Source of the DNA: Anaeromyxobacter soli
GTDB taxonomy: Bacteria; Myxococcota; Myxococcia; Myxococcales; Anaeromyxobacteraceae
NCBI RefSeq assembly: GCF_022808855.1
Contig: NZ_JAKZLF010000001.1
Span: 62,001-126,000, forward strand
Direction of reading: 5' to 3'
DNA length: 64,000 nucleotides
Positions 22,189 through 53,479 of this stretch are shown one piece after another. The notes beneath the pieces are model-generated. The model had not been told where the DNA came from, did not search any database, and saw only the letters and a list, made by a program, of their open reading frames with translations. Position 1 is the stretch's first letter; the number at the start of each line of letters is the position of its first letter. A program made the translations under genes and the position numbers.

Positions 22189-22202
22189 GTGACACAGATC
22201 AA
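22189..22202 (+). promoter_or_regulatory. CRP/FNR-like site A upstream of the 27-haem cytochrome
   Basis: GTGAC-ACAG-ATCAA fits the shared element NTGAC-N4-RTCAA found in the same orientation upstream of five cytochrome genes in this window. It ends about 124 bases before the start codon. Confidence 0.6.
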
Positions 22203-22209
22203 GCGATTT

Positions 22210-22249
22210 GCCCCAGTTGTACCGCGCTCAGGGGCAGGTACACTGGGGC
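22210..22249 (+). repeat. Inverted repeat in the cytochrome leader
   Basis: GCCCCAGTTGTACC (22210-22223) pairs with GGTACACTGGGGC (22237-22249) with one bulged T. It could be a terminator for the upstream gene or a second operator in the cytochrome promoter region. No U-run follows. Confidence 0.5.
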
Positions 22250-22325
22250 GACCTCCACCGGGTCACACGCAAAGGCAGCGCTGCCGGTGCGTGCAAACGG
22301 CCTGCGTAATTCCGAGGGCTTCGAG

Positions 22326-25133
22326 ATGGCCATGCTGCGCCCGTTCATCGTCCCGTTGCTGGGGGCGTCTCTCATCACCCTCCTCGCGTGTCAGGCTCGC
22401 ACGATCGAGGAGAGCAAGAGCGCCGAGACCGCCCAGTGCACCCGCTGTCACGGCGGCGAGCAGAACCAGACCGGCGCGCCGCCCCGCATGATCGGGTCCG
22501 ACCCCTCGCGTGCGGGCGCGCACTCCGCGCACGTCGAGGCCGGCGCGCTCGCCGGCGCCCTCGCCTGCTCCGAGTGCCACCTCGACCCGCGCACGGACCA
22601 GTCGCAGCACGGCAACGGAAAGGTGGACGTCTCGTTCGGCGCGCTCGCGCGCGCGGGAGGCGCCTCGCCGGCCTACGACCGCTCGAGCGGGACCTGCTCC
22701 AACGTCTATTGCCACGGCGGAACCGCCACCACGTCCCCGGTCTGGACCGCGCTGGACGGCGCCGCGGTGGCGTGCGGCGCCTGTCACGGGACTCCCGGGA
22801 ACCCCGTGCCGGCGACGCACCCGAGCCTCGCCCCCGGAGCGGCGACGGACATCACGTCCTGCGCCGCGTGCCACGGAGAGACGGTCGGCTCCGACGGGAA
22901 GATCCGGGTCGAGACGGGGAAGCACGTGAACGGCCAGGTCGACGTGCGCCCCGAGGCGAAGCACCCGCAGGGCTGGGCCTCGCCGTCGCTCCACGGCGCC
23001 GCCGCCGCTCAGGACGTTCGGGCGTGCCTCGCCTGCCATGCGGTGAAGGGGGAGCCGCACGTGACGGGCGTGGTCTGCGCGAGCTGCCACGACGCGTTCG
23101 CGGGAGGCAAGGACTGGACGGTGACCTGCAACACCTGCCACGGCGACGCCACCGATCCCTCCGGCGCTCCGCCGCAGGACCTCGCCGGCAACACCGCGAC
23201 GACCGCGCTCGGCGTCGGCGCGCACCGGCAGCACGTGCGGGGCAGCGCGCTCGCGCCCGCGTTCGACTGCAGCTTCTGCCACCCGAAGCCCGGCACCGTG
23301 CTCGACGCCACGCACCTCGACGGCCAGGTCGAGCTCACGGGCTACACGGGCGCCGACGGCGTCTGGAAGACCTCCGCGAAGGACCCGGGCTTCGCGCCCG
23401 CCTCGGCGAGCTGCGCGACCGCCTACTGCCACGGCGCGTTCCAGAACGGCAACGCGACGAACGCGCCGGTGTGGACGCGCGTCGGCGAGGGCCAGGCGGA
23501 CTGCGGGACCTGCCACGGCGTGCCGCCGCCCGCGCCGCACCCGGTGGTTCCCGCCGATCTCGCCGGCTGCAACGCCTGCCACCCCCAGACGATCTCCGCC
23601 ACGGGCGCGCTCATCTCGCCGTCGTCGGGGGGCAAGCACCTCGACGGCGCGATCGAGTTCTCCGGTGGCCACGAGGCCTCGTGGATGGACACGACCTCGT
23701 CGAACTTCCACGCCAACACGGCGGTCCGCAGCCTCTCGTCGTGCAAGGTCTGCCACGGGCAGAACCTCGACGGCAGCACCGGATTCGGCGGCTCGTGCGG
23801 CCGCTGCCACGATCGCCCCGGGCAGCCGTGGGCCACGAACTGCACGATGTGCCACGGCGGGACGGACAACGCGACGGGCGCGCCGCCCAAGGCGACCTGG
23901 GGACGCCAGGCCGATCCGGTCCGCACCGGCGCTCACACGGCGCACGTCACGCAGGGAGCGAACGGCGCCGTCTTCGACTGCAGCGTGTGCCACGTGACGC
24001 CCGCCGACGCGCTCACGCCCGGCCACATCGACGGCGAGACCGCGACGGTGAGGTTCGCCGGCGTGGCGGTGCCGACCGGCGTGACCCCCACCTTCGACCG
24101 CGCGACCGCGGGCTGCGCCTCGACGTACTGTCACGGCGCCACGCTGTCGGGCGGGTCGAAGACGTCCCCCGTCTGGACGAGCACCGGCACGGGCCAGGCC
24201 GACTGCGGGACCTGCCACGGCGTCCCGCCGCCGGCGGACGTCCATCCGCCTGTGTCGAGCAACCTCGCCGGCTGCAACCCCTGCCACCCCGACACCGTCT
24301 CCGCGAGCGGCGCGATCGTGCCCAGGAGCGCCGGCGGCAAGCACATCGACGGCACCATCCAGGCGGCGAGCGGCCACGACGCGGACTGGATGAACACCTC
24401 GAGCCCGAAGTTCCACGCGTACTCCGCGAACCAGGGGCTCGCGTCCTGCCAGTGGTGCCACGGCGCGGACCTCTCCGGCGGCTCGACCGGCGTGAGCTGC
24501 GCGTCCTGCCACGACGGCGTGAACCGGCCCGCCTGGAACAGCTGCGTCATGTGCCACGGCGACAAGACGACGGGCCTCGCCGCGCCGCCGCGCGCGACGT
24601 GGGGGAACAACGTCCAGAGCGGCACGACGAACGTCCGCATCGGCGCGCACGCGACGCACGTGAAGGGCACCGCGAACTCGGCGCCCATCGACTGCGCGGT
24701 CTGCCACCCGAAGCCCGCGGACGCGCTCACGCCCGGCCACGTCGACGCCGCGACCGCCACGGTCACGTTCACCGGCGTCGCCACGCAGGGTGTGACGGGC
24801 ACGAGCTGGAACCGTACGACGGCGACCTGCGCGTCGACCTACTGCCATGGCGCGAACGGCGGCTCGAACCCCACCCCGATCTGGACGAAGGTCGGCCAGG
24901 GCCAGGCGACGTGCGGCAGCTGTCACGGGGATCCGCCGAACGACGGCGGACTGGATCGGCACGTCTTCCACGTGAACGTCCTGAGCATCGGCTGCGGCGC
25001 CTGCCACGCCACGACGAGCACGCAGCACGTGAACGGCAGGCGCGACGTCGTGCTCTACACCGGGACGGTCATCAACACCGGCTGGACGTCGCAGCCCTCC
25101 TGCGACACGCTGGCGTGTCACGGCGCGGGGTAG
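22326..25133 (+). CDS. Lipoprotein multihaem cytochrome, 27 candidate haem sites
   Basis: A 935-residue protein starting at MAML or, two codons later, MLRP. A lipoprotein signal ends LITLLAC, so the mature protein is probably anchored in the outer membrane. By eye I count 22 CxxCH motifs and five CxxxxCH motifs (for example CSNVYCH, CASTYCH). The alternation of Cx4CH with following CxxCH is the pattern of the Geobacter C4xC/C2xCH cytochrome family (TIGR01904). Repeating landmarks are PVWT...CGTCHGVPPP, GAPP.ATWG and VGAH..HV. It is likely a surface electron-transfer cytochrome for metals or other insoluble acceptors. It is monocistronic, with CRP/FNR-like site A upstream and a strong hairpin downstream. 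Confidence 0.93.
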   Translation: MAMLRPFIVPLLGASLITLLACQARTIEESKSAETAQCTRCHGGEQNQTGAPPRMIGSDPSRAGAHSAHVEAGALAGALACSECHLDPRTDQSQHGNGKVDVSFGALARAGGASPAYDRSSGTCSNVYCHGGTATTSPVWTALDGAAVACGACHGTPGNPVPATHPSLAPGAATDITSCAACHGETVGSDGKIRVETGKHVNGQVDVRPEAKHPQGWASPSLHGAAAAQDVRACLACHAVKGEPHVTGVVCASCHDAFAGGKDWTVTCNTCHGDATDPSGAPPQDLAGNTATTALGVGAHRQHVRGSALAPAFDCSFCHPKPGTVLDATHLDGQVELTGYTGADGVWKTSAKDPGFAPASASCATAYCHGAFQNGNATNAPVWTRVGEGQADCGTCHGVPPPAPHPVVPADLAGCNACHPQTISATGALISPSSGGKHLDGAIEFSGGHEASWMDTTSSNFHANTAVRSLSSCKVCHGQNLDGSTGFGGSCGRCHDRPGQPWATNCTMCHGGTDNATGAPPKATWGRQADPVRTGAHTAHVTQGANGAVFDCSVCHVTPADALTPGHIDGETATVRFAGVAVPTGVTPTFDRATAGCASTYCHGATLSGGSKTSPVWTSTGTGQADCGTCHGVPPPADVHPPVSSNLAGCNPCHPDTVSASGAIVPRSAGGKHIDGTIQAASGHDADWMNTSSPKFHAYSANQGLASCQWCHGADLSGGSTGVSCASCHDGVNRPAWNSCVMCHGDKTTGLAAPPRATWGNNVQSGTTNVRIGAHATHVKGTANSAPIDCAVCHPKPADALTPGHVDAATATVTFTGVATQGVTGTSWNRTTATCASTYCHGANGGSNPTPIWTKVGQGQATCGSCHGDPPNDGGLDRHVFHVNVLSIGCGACHATTSTQHVNGRRDVVLYTGTVINTGWTSQPSCDTLACHGAG

Positions 25134-25196
25134 TCGTAGGCCGCCTCGAGGGCCGCGCCGTTGGCGGTCGAGGTGGTCACTGCTGATCTGGATACA

Positions 25197-25229
25197 AGCC
25201 CCTGGTCGCGACCTTCGCGACCAGGGGCT
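25197..25229. terminator. Perfect 15-base hairpin
   Basis: AGCCCCTGGTCGCGA (25197-25211) is exactly complementary to 25215-25229 around a three-base loop. It lies about 64 bases after the 27-haem cytochrome stop. Only a weak T-rich tail (GTTTG) follows, so it is a probable terminator or transcript-end stabiliser. Confidence 0.65.
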
Positions 25230-25799
25230 CCATGTTTGGAACGGCTGAGGACCGGTACCCGCGGACTACGCGCAACTCAGCAGCGCGTCGACGGGCGGGC
25301 TCCGTGCCGGCTGCTCCGACGGGCGTGAGCGCGGCGCACCTCGAAGGTGAGCGTGCGAGCAGGCCGCAACCGGCTGCGACATCCTTCGACTCTGCGCGAG
25401 GCTCAGAGTCCGCCGTCGGCGAGTCGGGTTCGCTCCGAACTCTTCGCAGCATGGTACCGCCGACGCTCCCAGTCGGCGCGCGGGCTCGCGCAGTCCGCCT
25501 CACGCCTCGCGCCGCGACCGCTCCCTCCGCCCCTCGACGTCGTCCAGCATCTGCCTGCGCCAGCCGTCCGCATCATTCGTCTACAGGCCCGATGCACCGC
25601 GTCGCTCGACCGGGAGGAACCGCGGCCGGGCCGCGTCGAGGAGGCGCCCATCACGCGGGCGTCGTTCTCGAGCGTAAGGAAGCGCGGGTCGCGGGGTTAC
25701 CTATCCCCGAGCTCCGCGTCGTGCGCATGCCGGCCGAGGACTTCGTCCCCCCCCTGGGCCCGAGGTTCGTTCCGCTCGCGCACGCGGCCGGCAGATCAA

Positions 25800-25830
25800 G
25801 GCCGCGCCCCGAGGACGACGGGGCGCGGCC
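25800..25830 (-). terminator. Hairpin after the 19-haem cytochrome gene
   Basis: An 11-base G+C stem (25800-25810 with 25820-25830) with a nine-base loop starts 26 bases beyond the cytochrome stop on the minus strand and is followed there by TTGATCTG. It is a probable terminator with a weak U-run. Confidence 0.6.
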
Positions 25831-25855
25831 GGATCTTCACCGCTCTCTCAGCGCA

Positions 25856-27871
25856 TCAATGGCAATTGAAGCACTGGGCGTCCCACTGCGGCTCCACGTC
25901 GACGACGCCGTTCGCATGACGCGCGCGGTTGGTGATGCCGATGCCCACCCCGGCCACGGTACCGATCGCGTCCGGGTGGCAGAGCTGGCACTGGTTTCCG
26001 CCGTTGTGATAGCCGTGCCAGGAGAGGTTCTCCCTGGGCGGATTTCCGTGGCACGAGTCGCACGCCGTCGGCGATCCCGTCCACGAAGGCGTCGCGCGCT
26101 TTCCGGCGTACCGCGCATCGTAGGTGCCGTCCCAGTAGTAGTACGAGAACGTGCCCGCGTAGTTGCCGTGGCAGTACGTGCTGGCGCACGTCCCCGCCGT
26201 CCGGTCCCACGCAGGAGCGGCCCCACCGACGGTCGCGAGCGAGCCCCAGGTGAGCTTGGCGGCTGCGTCGTCGATGTGACCCGGGGAGAAGGCGTCCGCC
26301 GGAACGACGTGGCACTGGTCGCAATCGAGCGGTGCCGCGACCGAGGTCCCCTTGACGTGCGCGGTGTGCGCCCCGACCCGAAGCGGGTCGCCCGAGTTGC
26401 CCCACGTCGTTCGCGGCGGCGCGCCCGTGCCGTCCGCCGGGTCGCCGTGGCACATGGTGCAGTTCCGCTCCCAGCCGGCCCCGTGGCACTTCGCGCAGCC
26501 GACCTGCGTCGCGCCGCCGCTCAGATCCGCGCCGTGACACGCCTGGCAGGGGCCGAGGCCGCGGTTCGCAGAGTACGCGTGGAACTTCGTGCTCGTCTTG
26601 TCCATCCAGTCCTTGTCATGCCCGCCCTCGACGAACCCGTCGAGGTGGAGCCCGCCGGCGCTCGGCGGGATGAGCGCGCCGCTCGAGTCGACGGTGTCCG
26701 AGTGGCACACGGCGCACCCGGAGAGGCCGCCGGAGACCGAGGGGTGCGGCGCGGGAGGAGGCAGGCCGTGGCAGGTGCCACACCCGGCCTCGCCCTGGCC
26801 GACGCGCGTCCAGGTGGGCGACTTGTTCGTCCCGCCGCCGAGCGTGGCGCCATGGCAATACGTGCTGCTGCAGGTCCCGGTGTCGCGACTCCACGCGGCG
26901 GCCGGCTCCCCGCGGTTCGCGGCGAGGCCGCTGAACACGACCTTCGCGGTCGCCTCGTCGACGTGGCCGTCCGACAGTGCGTCCGTGGGCTTCACGTGGC
27001 AGACGGCGCAGTCGAAGGGCGGCGCGATGGCGCTGCCGGTCAGGTGGGCTGCGTGCGCGCCGATCCGCACGTTCGCGGTGTCGCTCGGGACGTTGTTTCC
27101 CCACGTCGCCCTCGGCGGCGAGGACTGCCCGGTCGCCTTGTCGCCGTGGCACATCACGCAGTTCGTCCGCCAGCTCGTGACGCCGGTCGGGAGGTTGCGA
27201 TCGTGGCAGTCACGGCAGCCGGTGCTGGTGGAGCCGCCGGTGAGATCGGCGCCGTGGCAGGCCTGGCAGCTCGCGATGCGCGCGTTGGCGGAGTACGCGT
27301 GGAACCCGGAGCTCGCGGAGTTCATCCAATCGACGCCGTGGCTCACGAGCACGACGGTGCCCTTCGTGTGCTCGCCCATCCGGTGGCACGCCTCGCAGTC
27401 CGCGCGCGTAGGGTTCTGGACGACGAGCGTCGGGTGGACCGACGGGAGCGCAGCCACCGCGTGACAGGAGGTGCAGTCGAGCGGACCGGGCGTCCCCCAG
27501 GTGATCGAGTGGGGCTGCGTGCCCATCGGGAAGTGGCACGCCACGGAGCAGGTCGCCGGATCCGTCCCGGTGAGCGTGATGGTGCCGCCCGATGTCGAGG
27601 TCCCGCGGGTATAGGTGAAGGCGTCGAACTGGTACGCGCCGCCGCAGGGGTGGCAGACCGCGCAGCCGATCCCGTAAGCGGCGTGCTTGTCGTGCGACCC
27701 GGTGCCGGTGCACACCGCAGCGGTCGCGGTGATGGCGGAGGAGCGCGGTGTCCTCGCGAGGCCACCCTGCCCTGCCTCCTGCGCTCCGCTCCCGCACGCC
27801 AGCGACGACAGCATGGCGATGCCGGCGACGATCGCCGATCCGAGCCTTCGGTCGAGCTGCCACGAGCGCAT
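25856..27871 (-). CDS. Lipoprotein multihaem cytochrome, 19 candidate haem sites (paralogue 1)
   Basis: A 671-residue protein from the ATG at 27871, giving a lipoprotein signal ending LSSLAC; the frame is open a little further up. An N-terminal block HDKHAAYGIGCAVCHPCGG and a CSVACH motif (Cx3CH) are shared with two other lipoproteins here. I count 16 CxxCH, two CxxxxCH and one CxxxCH. Landmarks HADLTGG, ATWGNN, VGAHTAHV and the terminal CFNCH recur in the gene at 59686, which has the same haem-motif order and count, so the two are duplicates. It is a probable outer-surface electron carrier. It is monocistronic, with CRP/FNR-like site B upstream. Confidence 0.93.
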   Translation of the reverse strand: MRSWQLDRRLGSAIVAGIAMLSSLACGSGAQEAGQGGLARTPRSSAITATAAVCTGTGSHDKHAAYGIGCAVCHPCGGAYQFDAFTYTRGTSTSGGTITLTGTDPATCSVACHFPMGTQPHSITWGTPGPLDCTSCHAVAALPSVHPTLVVQNPTRADCEACHRMGEHTKGTVVLVSHGVDWMNSASSGFHAYSANARIASCQACHGADLTGGSTSTGCRDCHDRNLPTGVTSWRTNCVMCHGDKATGQSSPPRATWGNNVPSDTANVRIGAHAAHLTGSAIAPPFDCAVCHVKPTDALSDGHVDEATAKVVFSGLAANRGEPAAAWSRDTGTCSSTYCHGATLGGGTNKSPTWTRVGQGEAGCGTCHGLPPPAPHPSVSGGLSGCAVCHSDTVDSSGALIPPSAGGLHLDGFVEGGHDKDWMDKTSTKFHAYSANRGLGPCQACHGADLSGGATQVGCAKCHGAGWERNCTMCHGDPADGTGAPPRTTWGNSGDPLRVGAHTAHVKGTSVAAPLDCDQCHVVPADAFSPGHIDDAAAKLTWGSLATVGGAAPAWDRTAGTCASTYCHGNYAGTFSYYYWDGTYDARYAGKRATPSWTGSPTACDSCHGNPPRENLSWHGYHNGGNQCQLCHPDAIGTVAGVGIGITNRARHANGVVDVEPQWDAQCFNCH

Positions 27872-28016
27872 GCGGATCCCCCAGACCCTGGTCGCGAACG
27901 ACTGAACCGCCTCGGCCAAAGAAAGCAACTTCGATGGCTCACGACGAGAGAGCGTTCGGGTGCACGTGTTGGACGCAACCCATTAGTCCGCCCGATCTCA
28001 ATCTCGCACAATCCCT

Positions 28017-28030
28017 TTGATGTGTGTCAG
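28017..28030 (-). promoter_or_regulatory. CRP/FNR-like site B
   Basis: Read on the gene strand the site is CTGAC-ACAC-ATCAA, matching NTGAC-N4-RTCAA. It lies about 146 bases upstream of the 19-haem cytochrome start. Confidence 0.6.
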
Positions 28031-28164
28031 CAACCTTCAGTACATGAGGGGGCGTGGTGCCGCGACGCGCTTGGGTGGCGATCCCTGCGTCCTCGCGCCG
28101 CGCTCCGATGCTCGAGACGAGGCGCGACCAGGCGTCGGGCTCCAGCGACGTCCGCGCTCGGCAA

Positions 28165-28204
28165 AGAACGGGGGGCCACCGCGCATTGCGCGGCAGCCCC
28201 GTTC
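28165..28204 (-). terminator. Terminator of the FN3 cytochrome gene
   Basis: On the minus strand a long G+C hairpin (arms ending at 28204 and 28165, loop AAT, one or two mismatches) is followed by CTTTG. It lies 24 bases beyond the stop codon. Confidence 0.6.
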
Positions 28205-28227
28205 CGGACCAACGACGTTGACGTTGA

Positions 28228-30006
28228 TCAATAAGGCATCGGGTCGTACCACCAGATCCCGAATGCATCGACGCTCGACCACGGCGAACGGAGATCGTGC
28301 GCAGCGTCCCGCGCCTGGACGCGCCAGTAATAGGTCGCGCCCGGCCACTCGGTGGCCGTGAAGGTCTTCGCGTACGTCGTCGAGGGGGTCCAGGGCCCGT
28401 CGAACACGAGCGGAGCGGTGAAGCCGGGGTTCGAGGAGATCTGGATGCGGTACTCGACGGGATCCCCGTTGGGATCCGCGACGGCGGCCCACTGGAACGT
28501 GACCGGCACGGCGGTCTCGGGGTACGGAACGGCGCCGTCATCCACCGGCGTGAGCGCAGGCTGCCCAGGCGCGTTGGGGTCGGGCGTGGTGAACGTGTAG
28601 ATCTGCGACACTGTCGCGTTCCGCATCGCGTCCGACGAGCGGACCCGGTACGCGTACTGCGTGAGCGGAGCGAGACCGGTGAGCGTCACCTCGCGACAGG
28701 GGGTGCTCACGCCTGGCCCGCAGGGCTGGGTCACGAGCAAGCCGTTGCCATCGACGTTCGAAGGCGTCCCCACGCCCCATTCGACGTAGGAGGTGGCCTT
28801 CTCGTTCGTGGTCCAGGACACCTTCGCGCTCGTCCCCGTGACTTCCGTGACGACCACGTTCGTCACCGTGGGGGCAACGTACTCCGGCGCCGCGGGGAAC
28901 CATCCCGCGGTGTGGCAGTGCCAGCAGTAGGCGTTCGGGTCGCTGATCGCCACGCCGGGCACGGGGTGGTCCGCCCAGGTGGGAAGCTTGAAGTTCACGA
29001 TGCCTTCATGGCCGTGGCAGAAGAAGCAGGGCTTGTTCGCGCCGCCGGGGACGGGGTCCGTCGTGTGGCACCCGGCTGCATTGCACCCCGCGTGGCGCGC
29101 GCCGGAGTGACACCGCTCGCAGAGCGCCTCCGCTCCCACTCCGGCGCGGTTGATCGTCGCATCCGCCACCGGCGACGTATTCACGTTCGACGCGAACAGG
29201 AACGCGTTCGAGCTCTGGTGCGCGTCGTGGCAGGTCACGCACGGAAGCGGACCAGCGCCCCGAGCGTACCCGATGAGCGACCCTCCGAACCCCGTGCCGG
29301 CGCGCGCGCCGTGGAAGTCCCCATCGGCGGACGCGTAGCCGACGAGGAGCGGCGGCGTCTTGCCCGCGACCGCGGTTCCCCGTCCGCCGTGGCACTTCTT
29401 GCACGCACCGTCCACCTGGGCCGGATCATTCGGGTCGAGCGCGCCGACCCCCTGGATGACCACGGTCCCGGAGACGTGCCTGCTCGTGTCGTGGCAGTTC
29501 TGGCAGGCGGCGCGGTTCGCCGTGGCGCTGGAGCTGTCCACGCCGTGGCTCGACCTCACCGGGAACGCTCCAGCCTGACCCTGCGAGTGGCACGAGCTGC
29601 AGGCGAGCGGGCCCGGAGCGCTCCAGTCGACGGGCTGCGTCGTCGCGAGCCCGCCGACGTTATGACACGCCACGCTGCACGTCGTTCCGTTCGCGCCGAC
29701 GGTCACCACGTTTTCCGGCCCCGAGATCGACGCTCCGCTCGTCGGGAGCGTGTACGTGCTCGAGAACTGCATGAGCCCGCCGCACTCGTGGCAGGTGGCG
29801 CACTGGAACCCGACGAGACCATGCTTGTCGTGGGCACCCGTGCCGCGGCAGACCGGGCCATCGGCGGTCGCGGTCGCTGCGGCGCGTGTCCGGCGGACCG
29901 AGGCGGGCGCCGGAGCGCCACTCGATGGTTCATCCTCACCGCAGGCGATGACCAGGATGGTCGACAGCGCAGCCAGGGCGATCGGACGCCCCAGGAGAGA
30001 TCGCAT
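28228..30006 (-). CDS. Lipoprotein decahaem cytochrome fused to fibronectin-III domains
   Basis: A 592-residue protein. The ATG at 30006 follows GAGGAGGGG, which decides it over the GTG at 30024. A lipoprotein signal ends LVIAC. Residues of about 60-362 carry ten candidate haem sites: eight CxxCH, one CxxxCH (CSVACH) and one CxxxxCH (CNAAGCH). The N-terminal HDKH...CATCHECGG block matches the 19-haem paralogues. From about 375 to 480 comes a fibronectin type III domain (SAKVSWTTNEKATSYVEWG), then a second beta-sandwich-like domain to the end. The domains suggest binding to a surface polymer, another cytochrome or a mineral. It is monocistronic, with site C upstream. Confidence 0.92.
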   Translation of the reverse strand: MRSLLGRPIALAALSTILVIACGEDEPSSGAPAPASVRRTRAAATATADGPVCRGTGAHDKHGLVGFQCATCHECGGLMQFSSTYTLPTSGASISGPENVVTVGANGTTCSVACHNVGGLATTQPVDWSAPGPLACSSCHSQGQAGAFPVRSSHGVDSSSATANRAACQNCHDTSRHVSGTVVIQGVGALDPNDPAQVDGACKKCHGGRGTAVAGKTPPLLVGYASADGDFHGARAGTGFGGSLIGYARGAGPLPCVTCHDAHQSSNAFLFASNVNTSPVADATINRAGVGAEALCERCHSGARHAGCNAAGCHTTDPVPGGANKPCFFCHGHEGIVNFKLPTWADHPVPGVAISDPNAYCWHCHTAGWFPAAPEYVAPTVTNVVVTEVTGTSAKVSWTTNEKATSYVEWGVGTPSNVDGNGLLVTQPCGPGVSTPCREVTLTGLAPLTQYAYRVRSSDAMRNATVSQIYTFTTPDPNAPGQPALTPVDDGAVPYPETAVPVTFQWAAVADPNGDPVEYRIQISSNPGFTAPLVFDGPWTPSTTYAKTFTATEWPGATYYWRVQARDAAHDLRSPWSSVDAFGIWWYDPMPY

Positions 30007-30174
30007 CGTTCCCCTCCTCTTCACGGACGAGCCGCCGCCCCACTTCGGGCGGCCAGCAAGACGTACCGTGAAATAGGTAGGTCACGAGGGTATCATGGGT
30101 CCGAGCGCTTGCTTGATGGCGTTCGCCGCGGCACGAGGTCGCGTTGCCTGAATTGATGCAACGCAATCCTCTCA

Positions 30175-30188
30175 TTGATGCGCGTCAA
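30175..30188 (-). promoter_or_regulatory. CRP/FNR-like site C
   Basis: On the gene strand the site reads TTGAC-GCGC-ATCAA, nearly a perfect palindrome. It lies about 169 bases upstream of the FN3 cytochrome start and just beyond the terminator of the upstream operon. Confidence 0.6.
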
Positions 30189-30192
30189 AACT

Positions 30193-30225
30193 GAAGGGGC
30201 GCGCCCCGCAGGAGCGCGCCCCTTC
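30193..30225 (-). terminator. Terminator of the isomerase-cytochrome-NHL operon
   Basis: A perfect 12-base stem (30193-30204 with 30214-30225), read on the minus strand, is followed by AGTTTTG. It lies 18 bases beyond the NHL gene stop. Confidence 0.75.
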
Positions 30226-30242
30226 GATCCGATACCAGGCGT

Positions 30243-32425: not shown

Positions 32426-32434
32426 CTTTGTCCT

Positions 32435-42005: not shown

Positions 42006-42095
42006 GCGCGCTCCGATCTCGCGAGCTTCCCTCGGCGAACAACCGGACTGGCGACCTATTCGCACCCGCGACGAAATGAATCGCCCTGACAAGAA

Positions 42096-42123: not shown

Positions 42124-42153
42124 CATACTACACCAGCGTGCTGCGCGAGCTGA

Positions 42154-43434
42154 CTAGTCCTTCGCGTGGCACTTGTTGCAGAGCGAGCGCTGGAAGAAGG
42201 CGTAGCGCGTCGCCGGGCGGTTGTACATCGCCGCCGCGTACTCGGCCTGCGTCAGGCCCTGGTTGAACTCGCCGTTCGCCATCTCCGTGCCCGCAGCCGC
42301 GTCCTTGCCCGGCCACTGACCGTCGACCGCGACGAAGGGCGCGTTGTTGTTCCAGCGGGAGAGCTGCGGGAACGCCGTGGCGTGCGCGCGGTGGCAGGAG
42401 AGGCACATCACGTTCTCCGTGCCGGTCGTCGGGCCGCCGAGCTGCGTGCCGTCGATGACCGCGTGCGCGGCGAGCGCAGCAACGTTCGCCGAGCCCTCCT
42501 CGTAGGGGATCATCGAGTCGTACGAGGTGGCCTGCGTGCCGGTGAGGTCGCCCGAGCCCTTGTACGCGTTGTAGATGGCCGCGATCGTCGTGCCGAGCGG
42601 GTTGCCGGCGAGGTCGTTCGCCTGCGCCGTCAGGAGCGCGCCGTTGCCGGCCGGGTGGATGAGCTTCGTGTTACCGGCGTTGATGCCGTTGTTGTGGATC
42701 GCGCCGTGGCAGTTCGCGCACCACTCGGACATGCCCGAGCCGTAGGCGACGCGCGTGTCGAACGTCGCCTCGGAGCGGTTGTAGGTCGACGGAGCGACCG
42801 CGATGGGCGGGTCGGCCGTGAACGCCGTGGCGGTCGGGACCGACATCGGAACGTAGCCAATGGGGGCGAGGAGGCGGTACACGCCGACGGCCGCGTCAAC
42901 GGTCGGGGCGGCGCCGTAGGAGCCGGAGCCGTCGATCGGCAGGACCTTCGCGCCGAGCGCGGAGGAGGCGATCGTGCCGGCCGCGTCGACGATGCGGGCG
43001 CGGCTGTGCGGATCGTGGCAGGAGATGCAGGAGAGCTTCGTCGCGTCGTAGTTGCCGCCCGGGGCCGTCGTCAGCTTCGTGTCGGCGCCGAGGGTGTAGT
43101 CGGCCGCGATGACGTTGTGGCCGTGCTTGTCAGCGGCGTTCGTGTACGGCGCGCCGCGGATCGTCGTGACGTAGCTCTTCGTCAGGTACGCGAAGTCGCC
43201 ACCAGGGGTCATCTCGACCACGCCGCCGCCCGTCGTCATGACGTGGTAGCTCTTCGGCGCCGTGTCGGCCGCCGCGTGGCAGTTGAGGCACGTCGAGCTC
43301 TGGTCGCTACCCTGGAGCAGGTAGGCGAAGCCCTGGAACTGCGTGCTGGCCCCCTTCTTGGCCATCGCAGTGTTGCCCTTCGAGTTGTGCATCGTGTGGC
43401 AGCCGTCGCAGGTCGCGACGCCACCGTCGTGGAA
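42154..43434 (-). repeat. Inverted repeat arm 1: omcS mature region
   Basis: 1,281 bases encoding the mature OmcS-like protein, near-identical in inverted orientation to 52036-53316 and of exactly the same length. Similarity begins at the signal-peptide cleavage site and ends at the stop codon. Confidence 0.9.
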
Positions 43435-43497
43435 CGCGTACGCGCTGGAGAAGCTCAGCGCGGCGACCGCTGCAACGGCAAACTTGGTGAACTTCAT
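42154..43497 (-). CDS. omcS: OmcS-like hexahaem extracellular cytochrome, copy 1
   Basis: A 447-residue protein with a signal peptide cleaved near SSAYA-FHDGG. Exactly six CxxCH motifs occur (CDGCH, CLNCH, CISCH, CANCH, CLSCH, CNKCH). Spacing and flanking motifs (GVAxCxGCHTMHNS, TTAPGG, APSTYNR, GMSEWCANCH, SGDLTGTQ, FEEG-like, LCNKCHAKD at the very end) match Geobacter sulfurreducens OmcS as I remember it. OmcS polymerises into filaments with a continuous haem chain used for extracellular electron transfer, and this protein probably does the same. It follows an NHL gene by 117 bases, behind AAAGGGGA. A nearly identical mature region is encoded at 52036-53316. Confidence 0.93.
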   Translation of the reverse strand: MKFTKFAVAAVAALSFSSAYAFHDGGVATCDGCHTMHNSKGNTAMAKKGASTQFQGFAYLLQGSDQSSTCLNCHAAADTAPKSYHVMTTGGGVVEMTPGGDFAYLTKSYVTTIRGAPYTNAADKHGHNVIAADYTLGADTKLTTAPGGNYDATKLSCISCHDPHSRARIVDAAGTIASSALGAKVLPIDGSGSYGAAPTVDAAVGVYRLLAPIGYVPMSVPTATAFTADPPIAVAPSTYNRSEATFDTRVAYGSGMSEWCANCHGAIHNNGINAGNTKLIHPAGNGALLTAQANDLAGNPLGTTIAAIYNAYKGSGDLTGTQATSYDSMIPYEEGSANVAALAAHAVIDGTQLGGPTTGTENVMCLSCHRAHATAFPQLSRWNNNAPFVAVDGQWPGKDAAAGTEMANGEFNQGLTQAEYAAAMYNRPATRYAFFQRSLCNKCHAKD

Positions 43498-43614
43498 TGT
43501 TTCCCCTTTGTGTTGTGGCCCTCTGCGACTTCACGGGGCCGTACTGCTGCGGGTACCACTCCCCTGCACTCACTTCTGCTCACTGCACTGCAACTCCTGC
43601 TGCAACACCTTCGG

Positions 43615-44541: not shown

Positions 44542-44870
44542 GTTCGTTGGCAGCCCACTGTGCAAGGGCGATACCGAGCCAGGAAGCGCCAAAATCCAGG
44601 CAGATCCGCGTCTCCCACATCTCGGGGACAGCGTGCGCTGCGCCATTTGACCCAGCGGTACATGTGGTTGGGGCATGCGCCACACCCAGCGCCACCGCAG
44701 AAGACGAGGTGCGGCGATGTCGTACACGTGACCGGCACACGCACCGGGAGCACTGGGAGGACCCGAGAACAGGACATTCGCGTCGGGAGGGGTCGCCGCG
44801 CGAGCCGGGGCGCGCGACCCATGAACGAACGCGAGGGCACGCGGCCGGGCGCCGTCGGCGCGCTGCGCAC
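44542..44870. other. Promoter region of the NHL-omcS unit
   Basis: 329 bases without a credible gene. On the minus strand it contains GTCAA at 44651-44647, a half-site of the element found upstream of other cytochrome genes; the left half (TACCG) does not match. I see no clear -35/-10 pair. Confidence 0.45.
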
Positions 44871-46565: not shown

Positions 46566-46826
46566 CCTCGTCCTGAACGCTGCGCGTGCTCCGCAGCTTC
46601 CTTTGGAAGGCGCGCAGCTTACCCCAAGGTCGTGGCGACCGGGCGGACGAGGCGCAGCGCGTCTCGCCTCCGAGCGCGATCCGCTCTCGACTCGCGGCGG
46701 CGTACCGAGTCGCACAGGGTCACCGGAGGCGCGTCGCGGGGGTTCGCCGGCGGTCGAGCGGCAGCCCGCTCCGCGCGGCGCCCGAGAAAATCGACCCGTC
46801 CCGTTGCCGGTATACTCGGCGCCCTC

Positions 46827-48497
46827 ATGCTCCCGAGGAACACCCGCAGCGCCGCGGCCTGGGCGGCGGGCGCCATCGCGATCGCGGCGCTCTTCGCCTA
46901 CCTCCCCGCGCTCGGCGCCGGGTTCGTGTTCGACGACCACCAGTTCCTCCCCGACGGACCCATCGTCCGCGGGCCGCTCGCGGACATCTGGTTCAGCGCC
47001 GCGGCGAAGGACTACTGGCCGCTCACGTACACGGTCCTCTGGGTCGAGGCGCGCCTGTTCGGCAGCGCACCGCTCGGCTACCACCTCACGAACGTCCTCC
47101 TCCACGCCGCGACTGCGATCCTCCTGTGGCGCGTGCTGCGCGCGCTCGAGATCCCCGGCGCGTGGCTCGCTGGGCTCCTCTTCGCGGTCCACCCGGTGAC
47201 GGTCGAGTCGGTGGCCTGGCTCTCGGAGCTCAAGAACACGCTCTCCGCGCCGCTGTTCCTCGGGAGCGCGCTCGCGTGGCTTCACGGCGAGCGGAGGGGA
47301 CGCCGGCGCGAGCTTGCGGTCGCCCTGCTGCTGTTCGCGCTCGCGCTCCTCGCGAAGACGTCCGTGGTCATGCTGCCGGTGGTGCTCCTCCTCCTCGCCT
47401 GGTACCGGCGCGGCCGGATCGATCGAAGCGACCTCGTGCGCACGGCCCCGTTCTTCGCCGTGGCCCTCGCGGCCGGGCTCGCGACGATCTGGTTCCAGCG
47501 CGTCCGGGCGATGACCGACGGGTGGCTGCCGGAGCGCGGCCTCGGCGAGCGGCTCGGCGGCGCGGGCTGGGCGCTCGTGTCGTATCTCGAGCGGGCGCTC
47601 CTCCCCGTTCGCCTCGCGTTCGTCTACCCCGAGTGGCCCGTGGCCGCGGGATCGCCCGCGTTCTACCTGCCCCTCCTAGGCCTCGCGGCCGGCTTCGCGC
47701 TGCTGTGGTCGCGCCGCGCGAGCTGGGGTCGGCCCGTCCTCCTCGCCCTCGGCTTCCACGCGCTCATGCTCCTGCCCGTCCTCGGGCTCGTGGACATCGC
47801 GTACCTGCGCTTCGGCCCCGCCTCGAACCACCTGCAGTACGTCGCGCTGATGGGTCCCGTCGCGCTCGCCGCGGCGGGTCTCGCGAGGCTCGCGGCGAGC
47901 CACCGCCGCGCCACGCTCGCCGGAGCGGGCGCGGTCGCGGCGCTCCTCGCGGTCGTCACCGCCACGCGCGCGGCGGCGTTCCAGGACGACCTCACCCTCT
48001 GGGCCGCCGCGGTGCGCGCAGCACCGGAGAGCCTCATGGCGCACTGGCAGCTCTCGGAGGAGCTCGCCGCGCGCGGCCGTCTCCCCGAGGCCGTGGCGGA
48101 CCTGGAGGAGGCGTCGCGCACCGTCCGCGGTCCCGCCTCCCGACACCGCGCCCGGAGCCTGCTCTTCCTCCGCACCGGCCGGTTCGCGGCCGCCGTCGCC
48201 GAGTGCGACGCCGCCGACGCCCTCCGGCCCGACCGCCAGTTCCGGCGCGACCTGGGCCGGATGCTCACCGTCTCCAACGCGCCGCTGGAGGGGATCGCCG
48301 CGCTCGAGCCGCTCGTCCGGCGGTATCCGGAGAACGTCGACTACCGCTACTGGCTCGGCGCGGCGCTCGCGCGCGCCGGGCGGTTCGCCGAGGCCTCGGA
48401 CGTCCTCGCGGAGGCGTCGCGCATCGCGCGCGGGACGGACGCGGAGATCGAGGAGGCGCTGGCGCTCGTGCGAGGCCGCCTGCGCGCCGGGCCATGA
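46827..48497 (+). CDS. GT-C-like membrane protein with C-terminal TPRs (copy 5 of 5)
   Basis: A 556-residue protein from the ATG at 46827. GAGFVFDD with Asp36-Asp37 follows the first membrane helix. YWPLTYTV replaces the YYRP motif, and AVHPVTVESVAWLSELKNT matches the SGRNN region of copy 4. About ten membrane segments are followed by weak TPR-like helices from about 400. A TATACT lies only 11 bases before the ATG, so the transcript leader may be very short. Its stop overlaps the start of the next gene (ATGA), pairing it with another membrane protein. Glycosyltransferase activity is inferred. Confidence 0.8.
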   Translation: MLPRNTRSAAAWAAGAIAIAALFAYLPALGAGFVFDDHQFLPDGPIVRGPLADIWFSAAAKDYWPLTYTVLWVEARLFGSAPLGYHLTNVLLHAATAILLWRVLRALEIPGAWLAGLLFAVHPVTVESVAWLSELKNTLSAPLFLGSALAWLHGERRGRRRELAVALLLFALALLAKTSVVMLPVVLLLLAWYRRGRIDRSDLVRTAPFFAVALAAGLATIWFQRVRAMTDGWLPERGLGERLGGAGWALVSYLERALLPVRLAFVYPEWPVAAGSPAFYLPLLGLAAGFALLWSRRASWGRPVLLALGFHALMLLPVLGLVDIAYLRFGPASNHLQYVALMGPVALAAAGLARLAASHRRATLAGAGAVAALLAVVTATRAAAFQDDLTLWAAAVRAAPESLMAHWQLSEELAARGRLPEAVADLEEASRTVRGPASRHRARSLLFLRTGRFAAAVAECDAADALRPDRQFRRDLGRMLTVSNAPLEGIAALEPLVRRYPENVDYRYWLGAALARAGRFAEASDVLAEASRIARGTDAEIEEALALVRGRLRAGP

Positions 48498-50110
48498 GAA
48501 CGCCGCCGCTCGCAGGAGACGCCGGCGCGCGGCCCGCGCCGCGAGCCATCCGGGTCGAGCCGATCTACCCGGCCGCCTTCCTGCTGTGCGCGATCGCGAC
48601 GCTGGTCCCGATCTGGTCGGTCGATTACCTGCCCATGGTCGATCTCCCCCAGCACGCCGCAGGAGCGTCGATGTGGATGCACCTGCGCGACCCGGGGTGG
48701 GGATTCGCGGACCGCGTCCGGCTCGACCTCGCGACGCCCTACGTGCTCTCGCCGCTCCTCGTGCGCGCCCTCGCGGAGCTCGCGGGGATCCCGGCGGCGC
48801 TGCACCTCGTCGTGAGCCTGGCGGTGATCGCGCTTCCCCTCGCCGCCGCTCGCCTCCTCCGGGCAGCGGACGGGGATCCGTGGGCCTCGCTCGCGGCGTT
48901 CCCCGCGGCGTTCAGCTTCTCGTTCCACTGGGGCTTCCTCCCGTACCTGGTCGCGGCGCCGCTCGCCGTCGCGCTGGTCGCGGCGGCGATCCGGAGCTCC
49001 TCCAGCCCCTCGCCCCGGCGCGCGCTGGAGCTCGGCCTCCTCACGGTGCTCGTGTTCTTCGCGCACGCCATGGCGCTCGCCGTGGCCGCATGCGCGGCGC
49101 TCGCCGTCATCGTCCACCGCGCGCCCGGCTGGCGGCTCGCGCTGCTCCGCTCGCTCCCCCTGGCCGCGCCCGTCCCGCTCATGATCTGGATCGCGCGCGC
49201 GAGGATGGGCGATCTCGCGGCGGCCTCCAGGCACGCCGACGAGGCGACGATCTGGGTCGACACCGCGAGGCGGATCACCGATCTCCCCGGGATGATCTTC
49301 GGGACGGCGCCCGACGTGCTGCGGGACGGCGAGACCTCCGGGATCCTCTCCGTCACGATCGCGCTCGCCCTCGCCGCGCTAGTTCTCCTCGCGCGGGCGC
49401 CGCGGCCGCGGGATCTCGGGCGCCTCGCCCCCCTCGCCCTCGTGCTCGCGCTCTACTTCGCGCTGCCCCACCACGCGCTCGCGGTCTCGTTCATCTACGA
49501 GCGGCTGACCGTGTTCATGGTGCCCTTCGCGCTCCTCGCGCTGAGCGCCCCGGCGCGTCCCGGGAGGAGGACGGCGCTCGCGCGGGCGGGCCTCGTGCTC
49601 CTCACGCTCGCCTGCATGTCGGTGTGGACCGCCCGCTTCCGGAGGTTCGACGCGGAGGCGCGCGGCTTCGACCGCATCGTGGACGCGGTGCCGCCGGCCC
49701 CGCGCCTCGTCGCGCTGCCGTGGCGCTCGTACAGCGACGCCCTGCCGGGCGCGCCCTATTACCTGCACTTCGGGGCGTGGATCCAGGCGAGGCGTGGCGG
49801 CGTGCTCGGGTACTCGTTCGCCGAGACCTCGGCGCAGGTGGTGCGGTACCGGCCCGGCGCGAAGCCCCCCATGACTCCGACGCTCAACCTCCGGCCCGAC
49901 CAGTTCACCTGGGCGACGGACGGCTGGTACGACTACTTCCTCGCGCGCTCCTTCGAGGACACCGGCGGGTTCCTGTTCCGGGAGGCGACGGAGCCCCTCG
50001 AGCTCGCCGCGCGCGAGGGGCCCTGGTGGCTCTACAGGAAGAGAGCGCGCGCGGAGCCCGACACCGGCGCGCGTGCTGCGGAGTCGGAGCGCGACGGGGC
50101 GAGGCCCTAG
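48494..50110 (+). CDS. Polytopic membrane protein, GT-C glycosyltransferase-like
   Basis: A 538-residue protein with about ten to eleven membrane segments and a soluble C-terminal part from about 390. The first external loop contains VDYLPMVDLPQHA with two Asp residues, at the position where GT-C enzymes carry catalytic acids. The C-terminal part is rich in aromatic residues (GWYDYFLARSF, GPWWLYRKR). I do not recognise a specific family. It starts by ATGA overlap with the preceding GT-C/TPR gene and ends in a short gap facing a convergent GT87-like gene, so it probably belongs to the same glycan or protein-glycosylation process. Confidence 0.7.
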   Translation: MRTPPLAGDAGARPAPRAIRVEPIYPAAFLLCAIATLVPIWSVDYLPMVDLPQHAAGASMWMHLRDPGWGFADRVRLDLATPYVLSPLLVRALAELAGIPAALHLVVSLAVIALPLAAARLLRAADGDPWASLAAFPAAFSFSFHWGFLPYLVAAPLAVALVAAAIRSSSSPSPRRALELGLLTVLVFFAHAMALAVAACAALAVIVHRAPGWRLALLRSLPLAAPVPLMIWIARARMGDLAAASRHADEATIWVDTARRITDLPGMIFGTAPDVLRDGETSGILSVTIALALAALVLLARAPRPRDLGRLAPLALVLALYFALPHHALAVSFIYERLTVFMVPFALLALSAPARPGRRTALARAGLVLLTLACMSVWTARFRRFDAEARGFDRIVDAVPPAPRLVALPWRSYSDALPGAPYYLHFGAWIQARRGGVLGYSFAETSAQVVRYRPGAKPPMTPTLNLRPDQFTWATDGWYDYFLARSFEDTGGFLFREATEPLELAAREGPWWLYRKRARAEPDTGARAAESERDGARP

Positions 50111-50153
50111 CGGACGAGCGACGTCCCCCGGCGACCGGCGGCACGCCGGCGGC

Positions 50154-51545
50154 TCAGCCCGCGACCGGCGCGAACACGTTCGCCACGTGGGCGGCGACGT
50201 ACAGCGCCACGAGCGCGATGGAAGCGACCGCCACTGCCGTGAGCTGGAGCTTCGGCGGAAGCGGGCGCACCGGCTCGGGGCGGCGGCCCGGGCGATCGTC
50301 GAGCGCCACGTCGGCGGCGAAGAACCCGGTGAGGGCGAGCAGCAGCACCGCGATCGCGGTCCAGAGCGGACCCGCGAGCGCCTCGAGGTGGAGCCTCGCC
50401 GTGAGCCCGGGCACGGCGGGATCGAGCGCGCGGAACATGTTCGTGTCGACGTTGTCCGGGAAGAGCACGAACGTCGCGGCGAGGTAGAGCGCGTTCAGGC
50501 CGCCGTAGGCGAGTGGGAAGAAAGCGGAGCGGTGCCGCAGCGCCGCCAGCACGAAGAGGACGAGCGCCGGCGCGGCCCACGCCATGTACTGGGGGAACCA
50601 GTAGCGCGGCGCGAGCAGGAACACCACGCTGCCGGCGTACAGGATGGCGACCTTCTGCCAGAGCGCGAACCCACGGAAGAGGCTCATCCAGACGCTCGCG
50701 ACGAGGAGCCCGGCGAGCAGCCACTCCGTCAGCGTCGTGCGCACCGGACCGTCCCAGAAGATCGCGTCGTACCCGTGGTTGCGGAACGCGAGGTAGCCCT
50801 CCCGGAACCCCGGGCTCCAGAAGGCCGCCACGATGGCGGCGCTCACCGCGGCGCCCACGGCGAGCGGGGCGAGCGCGCGCCGCCAGCCGAACTCGGTCAC
50901 GAGCACCGGCAGGAGGACGACGAGGAACACGACCGGGAAGTTCTTGAACCAGATGCCCAAGAACAGGGCGAGCACGCCAACGAAGGGGCGGCGCGTCGCG
51001 ACGAGGTAGGCGCCGAGGAAGGTCGCGGCCGAGGGCAAGAGGTCGAACTGCCCGAACACGAAGCCGACGAAGAGCAGGATGGGCGAGGTGAGGGCCGCGA
51101 GGAACGCGTGGCCTCCCAGGTCCTCCCCGTCCTTGCGGAGGAACTGCTCCCAGAAGCGGCGCGCGGTCCACGCGACGAGGAGGAGCGCCGGCACGTAGCT
51201 CAGCCTCGGCAGCAGGTACTCGGCGGCGGTGAGCGGCTGCGGCACGAGCCAGGGCGCGTAGCCGTAGAGCCCGAACAGCTTTCCCACCGCCACGATCGCG
51301 CCGAACCACAGATACGCGAGCGGCGGGTACGTGAACCCCTCGATGAACGGGCGCGCGGGGCCGTCGTAGACGGCCTGGTAGACGTTCCAGCGTCCCTCCG
51401 CGACGTAGTGGGAGGCCCAGACGATGTAGTCGAGGTCGCGGTGCGCGGAGAGCAAGGAGATGGCGAGCGCGAACACGACCACGCCCGCCGCCGCGAGAAC
51501 AAGGCGCTCCGTCGCAGCCCCGGCCCCACCCAGATTCAGCTTCAT
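50154..51545 (-). CDS. GT87-like membrane glycosyltransferase
   Basis: A 463-residue protein with about ten membrane segments. The first external loop reads RDLDYIVWASHYVAEGRWNVYQ, and a YPPLAYLWFGA motif follows; both are characteristic of GT87/mannosyltransferase-like (DUF2029) GT-C enzymes, which use polyprenyl-phosphate sugars. The motif PQYMAWAAP lies in a later loop. The ATG at 51545 has no strong ribosome site. It is convergent with the preceding polytopic gene and divergent from OmcS-like copy 2. The substrate is unknown. Confidence 0.75.
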   Translation of the reverse strand: MKLNLGGAGAATERLVLAAAGVVVFALAISLLSAHRDLDYIVWASHYVAEGRWNVYQAVYDGPARPFIEGFTYPPLAYLWFGAIVAVGKLFGLYGYAPWLVPQPLTAAEYLLPRLSYVPALLLVAWTARRFWEQFLRKDGEDLGGHAFLAALTSPILLFVGFVFGQFDLLPSAATFLGAYLVATRRPFVGVLALFLGIWFKNFPVVFLVVLLPVLVTEFGWRRALAPLAVGAAVSAAIVAAFWSPGFREGYLAFRNHGYDAIFWDGPVRTTLTEWLLAGLLVASVWMSLFRGFALWQKVAILYAGSVVFLLAPRYWFPQYMAWAAPALVLFVLAALRHRSAFFPLAYGGLNALYLAATFVLFPDNVDTNMFRALDPAVPGLTARLHLEALAGPLWTAIAVLLLALTGFFAADVALDDRPGRRPEPVRPLPPKLQLTAVAVASIALVALYVAAHVANVFAPVAG

Positions 51546-51966
51546 CGCGCTCCCGTCCGCCCCCCTGGGACGCAGCCGTTATCGCGTGGGCCTCTCGGCA
51601 GCGTCAAGCGGCGAGGGAAGCCGGGACGTCCGCCATCTGCGCTGCGGAGCCAGCGGTGAGGCGTGGACGTGTTCGCCGGCTTTGTCCATGCGCACGGGCG
51701 GGAGGCTCCTGCCCGAAGGCTGACCACAGTCAAATGTTCGAGTCCCGTGACGATGGCACACGCCTGTTCACTTACCGTCATCTGCGAGCACGGCTATTCT
51801 TCGCGATAGGCCTGGGACTCAACGCAATCCGACGGCGACGAGCAACGGTAGCGCCGCAACCGTCAATGGCTCGTGCAATTGCGTGCCGGGACATTTTCGT
51901 ATCGCGGATGTCCGACCGCCCGGTATCTTCCGCGCCCTCAACTCGCAGCAATCTGGGGGACCACCC
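51546..51966. other. Gene-free divergent region upstream of OmcS-like copy 2
   Basis: These 421 bases contain no credible gene. CRP/FNR-like site D lies at 51720-51733. The right part is less G+C-rich than its surroundings, as expected for promoters. I could not fix a -35/-10 pair. Confidence 0.5.
51720..51733 (+). promoter_or_regulatory. CRP/FNR-like site D
   Basis: CTGAC-CACA-GTCAA matches NTGAC-N4-RTCAA in gene orientation. It lies about 234 bases upstream of OmcS-like copy 2, the longest distance of the set. Confidence 0.55.
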
Positions 51967-53316
51967 ATGCGTTTCAAGAGGACCGCGGGCGCGCTCGTCG
52001 CGCTCGCCCTGGCCGTGCCATGTTCCGTGCTCGCGTTCCACGACGGCGGCGTCGCGACCTGCGACGGCTGCCACACGATGCACAACTCGAAGGGCAACAC
52101 TGCGATGGCCAAGAAGGGGGCCAGCACGCAGTTCCAGGGCTTCGCCTACCTGCTCCAGGGTAGCGACCAGAGCTCGACGTGCCTCAACTGCCACGCGGCG
52201 GCCGACACGGCGCCGAAGAGCTACCACGTCATGACGACGGGCGGCGGCGTGGTCGAGATGACCCCCGGCGGCGACTTCGCTTACCTGACGAAGAGCTACG
52301 TCACGCCGATCCGTGGTGCGCCCCCCACTAACGCGGCCGACAAGCACGGCCACAACGTCATCGCGGCCGACTACGGCCTCAGCGCCGACACGAAGCTGAC
52401 GACGGCGCCGGGCGGCAACTACGACGCGACGAAGCTCTCCTGCATCTCCTGCCACGATCCGCACAGCCGCGCCCGCATCGTCGACGCGGCCGGCACGATC
52501 GCGTCCTCCGCGCTCGGCGCGAAGGTCCTCCCGATCGACGGCTCCGGCTCCTACGGCGCCACCCCGACCGTTGACGCGGCCGTCGGCGTGTACCGCCTCC
52601 TCGCCCCCATTGGCTACGTTCCGATGTCGGTCCCGACCGCCACGGCGTTCACGGCCGACCCGCCCATCGCGGTCGCTCCGTCGACCTACAACCGCTCCGA
52701 GGCGACGTTCGACACGCGCGTCGCCTACGGCTCGGGCATGTCCGAGTGGTGCGCGAACTGCCACGGCGCGATCCACAACAACGGCATCAACGCCGGTAAC
52801 ACGAAGCTCATCCACCCGGCCGGCAACGGCGCGCTCCTGACGGCGCAGGCGAACGACCTCGCCGGCAACCCGCTCGGCACGACGATCGCGGCCATCTACA
52901 ACGCGTACAAGGGCTCGGGCGACCTCACCGGCACGCAGACCTCCTCGTACGACTCGATGGTCCCGTTCGAGGAGGGCACCACCGACATCGCCACGCTGGC
53001 TTCGCATGCCGTCATCGACGGTTCGGTGAAGGATGGTCCAGTGACGGGGAACGAGAACGTGATGTGCCTCTCCTGCCACCGTGCGCACGCCACTGCGTTC
53101 CCGCAGCTCTCCCGCTGGAACAACAACGCGCCCTTCGTCGCCGTCGACGGCCAGTGGCCGGGCAAGGACGCCGCCGCGGGCACCGAGATGGCGAACGGCG
53201 AGTTCAACCAGGGCCTGACGCAGGCCGAGTACAAGGCGGCCATGTACGACCGCCCGGCGACGCGCTACGCCTTCTTCCAGCGCTCGCTCTGCAACAAGTG
53301 CCACGCGAAGGACTGA
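51967..53316 (+). CDS. omcS: OmcS-like hexahaem extracellular cytochrome, copy 2
   Basis: A 449-residue protein, again with exactly six CxxCH motifs and the OmcS landmarks GMSEWCANCH, APSTYNR and terminal LCNKCHAKD. The signal peptide (ALAVPCSVLA-FHDGG) is unrelated to that of copy 1. From FHDGG to the stop both copies have the same length (1,281 bases including stop), with long stretches identical in DNA. Differences cluster near residues 107-132 and in one block, GTQTSSYDSMVPFEEGTTDIATLASHAVIDGSV. It has its own promoter region with site D. It is probably a nanowire subunit made under different conditions from copy 1. Confidence 0.93.
   Translation: MRFKRTAGALVALALAVPCSVLAFHDGGVATCDGCHTMHNSKGNTAMAKKGASTQFQGFAYLLQGSDQSSTCLNCHAAADTAPKSYHVMTTGGGVVEMTPGGDFAYLTKSYVTPIRGAPPTNAADKHGHNVIAADYGLSADTKLTTAPGGNYDATKLSCISCHDPHSRARIVDAAGTIASSALGAKVLPIDGSGSYGATPTVDAAVGVYRLLAPIGYVPMSVPTATAFTADPPIAVAPSTYNRSEATFDTRVAYGSGMSEWCANCHGAIHNNGINAGNTKLIHPAGNGALLTAQANDLAGNPLGTTIAAIYNAYKGSGDLTGTQTSSYDSMVPFEEGTTDIATLASHAVIDGSVKDGPVTGNENVMCLSCHRAHATAFPQLSRWNNNAPFVAVDGQWPGKDAAAGTEMANGEFNQGLTQAEYKAAMYDRPATRYAFFQRSLCNKCHAKD
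52036..53316 (+). repeat. Inverted repeat arm 2: omcS mature region
   Basis: Partner of 42154-43434. The arms enclose about 8.6 kb carrying both signal peptides and promoters, the NHL gene and five membrane-protein genes. I compared several hundred bases by eye and found runs of well over 100 identical bases. Confidence 0.9.
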
Positions 53317-53465
53317 TCCAGTGCTGTAGGCAGTGAATCAATCGCATCATCGACCATAGGTCGTCGCCGCCGCTCTCCCTGCCCGGGCGCCCGCCTCATA
53401 TCCCTCGCGCCGGCTCTCGGGAGTCGTGCTCGCCCAGCCATGCGACGCATGGCCGCACTGACCGT

Positions 53466-53479
53466 GTGACCGCGGTCAA
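53466..53479 (+). promoter_or_regulatory. CRP/FNR-like site E
   Basis: GTGAC-CGCG-GTCAA contains a perfect TGACCGCGGTCA palindrome and fits NTGAC-N4-RTCAA in gene orientation. It lies about 97 bases upstream of the giant cytochrome start. Confidence 0.65.

Follow-up and report, generated by a model that had tools for sequence, protein, structure and literature searches.

The window analysed here is a stretch of 64,000 nucleotides (G000:C1:62001-126000) from a 5.3 Mb Anaeromyxobacter soli genome in 80 contigs, and between positions 22189 and 53479 it holds several multihaem cytochrome genes that are preceded by the same short, nearly palindromic element (Table 1; gene calls are simple calls made in this analysis, and start codons may be off). 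A sequence-only reading had listed five of these 14-mers, roughly 97 to 234 bases upstream of their genes, and we find all five where it placed them and at the distances it gave; it had overlooked a sixth (28218-28231), in which the first TGA doubles as the stop codon of the 8-haem gene. Two of the six sites have perfect TTGA/TCAA ends, and in four one end carries a G or C; the palindromic TTGA and TCAA half-sites lie six bases apart, the arrangement of a TTGA-N6-TCAA operator. The 26-haem/isomerase and barrel operons, said in the same reading to be free of the element, are indeed without it in a matrix scan of the window, as is a second OmcS-like gene at 42154-43497 (scores near or below zero in each case). 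The 49-haem gene and the 16-haem gene that overlaps its end are probably co-transcribed.

Table 1. Sites, promoters and genes in the window (positions counted from its first letter), with the gene of the candidate regulator given by its own coordinates
Feature	Position	Strand	Remark
FNR-like site GTGACACAGATCAA	22189..22202	+	124 bases 5' of 22-haem cytochrome
Putative promoter TTGTAC-N16-TACACT	22217..22244	+	3' of 22189 site; fully conserved in sister species
22-haem cytochrome, lipoprotein-type	22326..25133	+	N-terminal lipobox-like LLAC
16-haem cytochrome	25856..27871	-	lipobox-like SLAC
FNR-like site CTGACACACATCAA	28017..28030	-	146 bases 5' of 16-haem cytochrome
Sixth FNR-like site TTGACGTTGATCAA, listed as TTGATCAACGTCAA	28218..28231	-	5' of 16-haem gene
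8-haem cytochrome, fibronectin-type domain, 592 aa	28228..30006	-	lipobox VIAC
FNR-like site TTGACGCGCATCAA, full palindromic ends	30175..30188	-	5' of 8-haem cytochrome
FNR-like site CTGACCACAGTCAA	51720..51733	+	234 bases 5' of OmcS-like gene
Hexahaem OmcS-type (nanowire) cytochrome	51967..53316	+	E 2e-111 to solved OmcS filament protein
FNR-like site GTGACCGCGGTCAA	53466..53479	+	97 bases 5' of 49-haem cytochrome
Putative -10 box TAGGGT	53502..53507	+	22 bases 3' of 53466 site; class II FNR geometry
49-haem cytochrome	53576..59611	+	16-haem gene 59605-61710 overlaps gene end
Candidate regulator, CRP/FNR protein	C78:146352-147002		

The two OmcS-type hexahaem proteins (42154-43497 and 51967-53316) are 92% identical, and the operator stands at 51967-53316 only. 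Since that gene also has no counterpart in the sister species, it appears to be a copy of recent origin with different regulation.

Occurrence, conservation and promoter geometry of the motif

With the pattern TGACN4RTCAA, whose N4 spacing was set post hoc on sites first seen by eye, we count 6 matches in the window, where dinucleotide shuffles give 0.21 on average and none of 100 reached 6. Genome-wide the pattern matches 26 times, at 23 places, and its reversed control 9 times; 6 of the 23 places fall inside the window, which makes up 1.2% of the whole genome length (binomial p 3e-7). Spacings 0 to 10 together give 105 matches, of which N4 is the commonest with 26. Because spacings 1, 7 and 10 are also raised, perhaps from coding phase, we compared genomic position: 22 of the 23 N4 places lie between genes, whereas of 21 places sampled from the other spacings 10 do (p 5e-4).

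The matrix, footprint and homology tests are free of the post hoc bias of the pattern. With all window sites left out of its training, a symmetric matrix has exactly six intergenic window matches at or above its threshold of 10 bits, and these are the six sites, all 5' of cytochrome genes; column-permuted matrices find 0.21 on average and 4 at most. A looser search for KTGAY-N4-RTCAM is inflated by a dispersed hairpin repeat and was kept out of the statistics. Downstream (3') of the sites, a secondary GCGCAA element is weakly enriched. The suggestion that every site reads in the direction of its gene holds only in part: the TCAA half is the gene-proximal half more often, but the motif is a near-palindrome whose direction partly follows the wording of the pattern, and the sites of a 46-haem gene are reversed. 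The motif as such has no strict orientation.

Comparison with orthologous regions from five other Anaeromyxobacter genomes shows what is kept within the sites. Across 29 cross-species pairs the outer bases, which the search did not demand at both ends, stay the same in 79% and 86%, against 48% for the six central bases and 47% for 40-base flanks; the TGA/TCA triplets are kept in 100%, but were demanded by the search. The distance from site to gene is kept as well, at 163-165 bases for a hydrogenase in four genomes, 58-59 for the 46-haem gene in three, and, in this genome and the sister species (G003), 97/99 for the 49-haem and 124/121 for the 22-haem gene. For the window sites, the conservation that the earlier reading proposed as a check is good, but incomplete: in the sister species the 22189 site is conserved as GTGATTTAGATCAA, the 30188 site is identical, the 53466 site is conserved as GTGATGCGGGTCAA at 99 bases and the overlooked sixth as CTGATCCAAATCAA, but the 28030 site is broken and the paralogue behind the 51720 site is absent. 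The A. dehalogenans-like genomes have weak sites or none at their nearest cytochrome clusters. When loci are picked by cytochrome homology alone, which removes the bias of a pattern search, a site of at least 10 bits precedes 16 of 37 cytochrome genes (those with at least three haem motifs) and 4 of 102 others (p 8e-8); more than half of the relatives' cytochrome genes have no site at that score.

Some sites also stand in a characteristic relation to putative promoters. Of 70 gene groups, 5 have a TAnnnT box 21-22 bases beyond the site, while all 48 other offsets together yield 10; among FNR-activated promoters of E. coli, 19 of 23 carry their site at -41.5 +/- 4 (PMC3688515). Predicted -10 boxes at this class II position occur in the 49-haem, 46-haem and 4-haem groups, and the remaining window sites are without a clear box. 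At the 49-haem promoter the box at 53502 reads TACGGT in the sister species, and in the fully conserved 22-haem promoter the -10 box lies 14 bases farther from the site than at the 49-haem gene. From this geometry we infer that the site-bound regulator would activate transcription.

Further targets and a candidate regulator

Elsewhere in the genome, N4 sites also lie 5' of the cbb3 oxidase gene ccoN, two NiFe-hydrogenase operons, ackA-pta, an operon with feoA-feoB, a nitrate-reductase-type operon, a tetrahaem/Fe-S/NrfD-type operon and another giant multihaem cytochrome; a 9-haem/cytochrome b operon 11 kb past the window end has a site, and pyruvate:ferredoxin oxidoreductase is also among the targets. 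The target set is therefore that of an anaerobic-respiration regulon, broader than cytochromes. The idea of one regulon uniting the lipoprotein and nanowire cytochromes agrees with the motif, the recognition helix of the candidate regulator, the promoter geometry, the conservation and the co-regulated genes, but the boundary drawn around it was too narrow, since it extends to the hydrogenases, cbb3 oxidase, feoAB, ackA-pta and the nitrate-reductase-type operon.

Two proteins of this genome have both CRP/FNR domains (C78 and C80), and of these C78 is the best candidate for the regulator. A CRP/FNR protein of this genome is 99% identical to that of Anaeromyxobacter terrae SG22. Orthologues of C78 (79-100% identity) are present in all genus and family genomes with a completeness of 87% or more. 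Cysteines C10, C13, C23 and C100 are conserved in 30 of 30 orthologues, at FNR-like places, and the recognition helix P-E-T-L-S-R, which has the E-x-x-S-R form, is invariant in genus and family. Comparative work links Ser or Pro at position 180 together with Glu at 181 to TTGA half-sites (PMC1274295), and the Pro-180/Glu-181 of C78 are predicted to read such half-sites. Against the curated Fnr model NCBIfam NF008365 the protein scores 18.3 bits, where the cut-off is 228, and because this subfamily model failed we call C78 FNR-like and not Fnr: by sequence it is related to FNR but divergent, FNR-like in its predicted working, and outside the Fnr subfamily. The predicted structure was set aside, with the sensor domain at low confidence (mean pLDDT 53).

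Around C78 lie genes for TatA, for a universal stress protein and for a protoglobin histidine kinase, whose response regulators are encoded there too, joined by a CBS protein in the sister genome; the domains of the kinase match those of the oxygen sensor AfGcHK/NmpU (PMC11841059). Nitric oxide had been offered on equal terms with a redox signal, and we drop that parity: because of the four conserved cysteines and the adjoining oxygen-sensing protoglobin kinase, oxygen, sensed through a putative Fe-S cluster, is the likelier signal. The regulator island (L048 95-7006) also contains an NtrC-type regulator, and its order is largely kept in two other species (L246, L247). Half-degenerate sites of the TTGATCGAGGCCAA and TTGATCnnnGCCAA type occur about 95-120 bases 5' of the regulator in many relatives (L215-L227); weak autoregulation of the C78-type regulator is possible.

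The second protein, C80, has none of the FNR-type cysteines, carries the helix P-E-S-L-S-R and is patchy in the genus. A perfect palindrome, TTGACTGCAGTCAA, lies 1.2 kb from its gene, 5' of the gene for a Cys-rich protein that adjoins it (L047 7391-9742).

A probable FNR-type regulon and its alternatives

The operator consensus is a conserved KTGAY-N4-RTCAM palindrome 5' of cytochrome and other anaerobic-respiration genes, and the sites are probably the operators of one FNR-type anaerobic regulon, a reading in which we have good confidence. In the mechanism that we propose, a C78 dimer would bind the sites at low oxygen, with its cysteine-ligated Fe-S cluster intact, and would activate sigma-70 promoters, at several targets from the class II position (centre near -41.5). 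The 22-, 16-, 8- and 49-haem cytochromes and one of the two OmcS-type nanowire genes would then be induced together, along with hydrogenases, cbb3 oxidase, ferrous-iron uptake, acetate kinase and the nitrate-reductase-type operon. We put forward more tentatively, as a serious possibility that falls somewhat short of an even chance, that this CRP/FNR lineage of the Anaeromyxobacter family (C-x2-C-x9-C...C, in an AfGcHK oxygen-sensing island) is a master switch for extracellular electron transfer, into which nanowire cytochromes are wired gene by gene; the last part is proposed because only one of two 92% identical OmcS-type paralogues has the operator.

How else could these sites be used? Both CRP/FNR proteins might bind them, so that the cytochromes would respond to oxygen and a second signal together. 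A P-E-x-L-S-R recognition helix is present in both proteins of this genome, and in alpha-proteobacteria FNR, FixK and DNR have sites in common (PMC2908626); yet no two classes can be distinguished among the sites and C80 is not conserved along with the regulon, and we regard such layered control as rather doubtful. Ownership of the sites by a nitric-oxide- or nitrite-responsive regulator of the DNR/HcpR type, and not by an oxygen sensor, is unlikely. The cysteine-free C80 would be one example, given its helix and the perfect site nearby, and it is possibly an HcpR/DNR member; for HcpR1 of Geobacter and Desulfuromonas, recognition of the same TTGACnnnnGTCAA and control over nar, nrfHA and some cytochrome c genes have been predicted (PMC1274295), and in a profile comparison DNR is the solved protein nearest to C78 itself. 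What weighs against it is that C80 is patchy, and that an A. oryzae-like genome (G006) keeps the regulon with the cysteine-bearing C78 orthologue as its only protein with both CRP/FNR domains. Moreover, the targets are hydrogenases, cbb3, feoB, ackA and pyruvate:ferredoxin oxidoreductase, not nitric oxide detoxification, and HcpR and DNR are without the cysteines (PMC1274295) that C78 has, so that C78 does not fit either family.

Control by cAMP-CRP is very improbable. It would draw on the same superfamily, some half-sites do read GTGA, and in Shewanella CRP governs omcA/mtrC (PMC4417206), but here 67-77% of sites start with T and show no TGTGA extension, position 180 of the recognition helix is Pro and not Arg, and nothing in this genome matches the Pfam Crp helix model. 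Least credible of all is that the sites are chance matches or copies of a dispersed repeat: the hairpin repeat of this genome contains GTGACGCGAATCAC and does inflate looser patterns, but it is absent from the window, where the five sites listed earlier differ in centre and flanks, and a chance origin is rejected by the shuffles, the permuted matrices and the cross-species footprint.

Set beside known systems, the operator and the predicted mechanism of the FNR-type regulon are of an already known kind, with FNR, HcpR1 and CRP/EtrA closest. The E. coli FNR regulon shares the palindrome of TTGAY half-sites with four central bases, the class II position near -41.5, the control of nitrate reductase, hydrogenase and ferrous-iron genes, and a four-cysteine regulator with an E-x-x-S-R helix; it differs in that here TTGAC/GTGAC half-sites are as frequent as TTGAT, the targets include 22- to 49-haem cytochromes, and C78 is divergent and does not match the curated Fnr model. 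The cysteine spacing of E. coli FNR also differs from the C-x2-C-x9-C of C78. The predicted HcpR1 regulon has the same motif, Ser/Pro at 180, and nar and some cytochrome c targets, whereas HcpR has no cysteines and is centred on hcp/frdX and nitrogen oxides (PMC1274295). In Shewanella, omcA-mtrCAB is likewise an instance of outer-surface multihaem cytochromes under CRP/FNR-superfamily control, but there CRP is essential, EtrA merely fine-tunes, and both the motif and the cytochrome operons are others (PMC3078092, PMC4417206). The myxobacterial oxygen system NmpRSTU/AfGcHK has oxygen-linked targets and globin kinase genes of the kind found near C78, although its NmpR is NtrC-like, sigma-54 dependent and reads GCGCA-N5-TGCGC (PMC11841059). 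We tried such NmpR sites as a rival candidate; they occur at chance level and are not enriched in the window.

In the literature searched (most subscription journals lay outside its scope) we found no description of this Anaeromyxobacter regulon, and no account of when metal-reducing Anaeromyxobacter builds up its giant surface cytochromes. With these sites there is now a regulon that can be tested, with a named candidate regulator and a candidate signal, and the natural OmcS-type pair that differs in its operator could show whether an oxygen-independent nanowire gene is held in reserve.

At the tetrahaem/Fe-S/NrfD operon, two FNR-like sites have starts exactly 14 bases apart in three genomes (L194, L260, L286), the second lying between the first and the -10 box. 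The dispersed hairpin repeat occurs in this genome at about nine places outside the window (L236-L245), at the 3' ends of genes, and has the structure TAAACGACAG...GTGATTCGCG...TTCG...CGCGAATCAC...CTGTCGTTTA with a G-rich tail; its first TAA or TGA is at the stop codon of the gene in most places.
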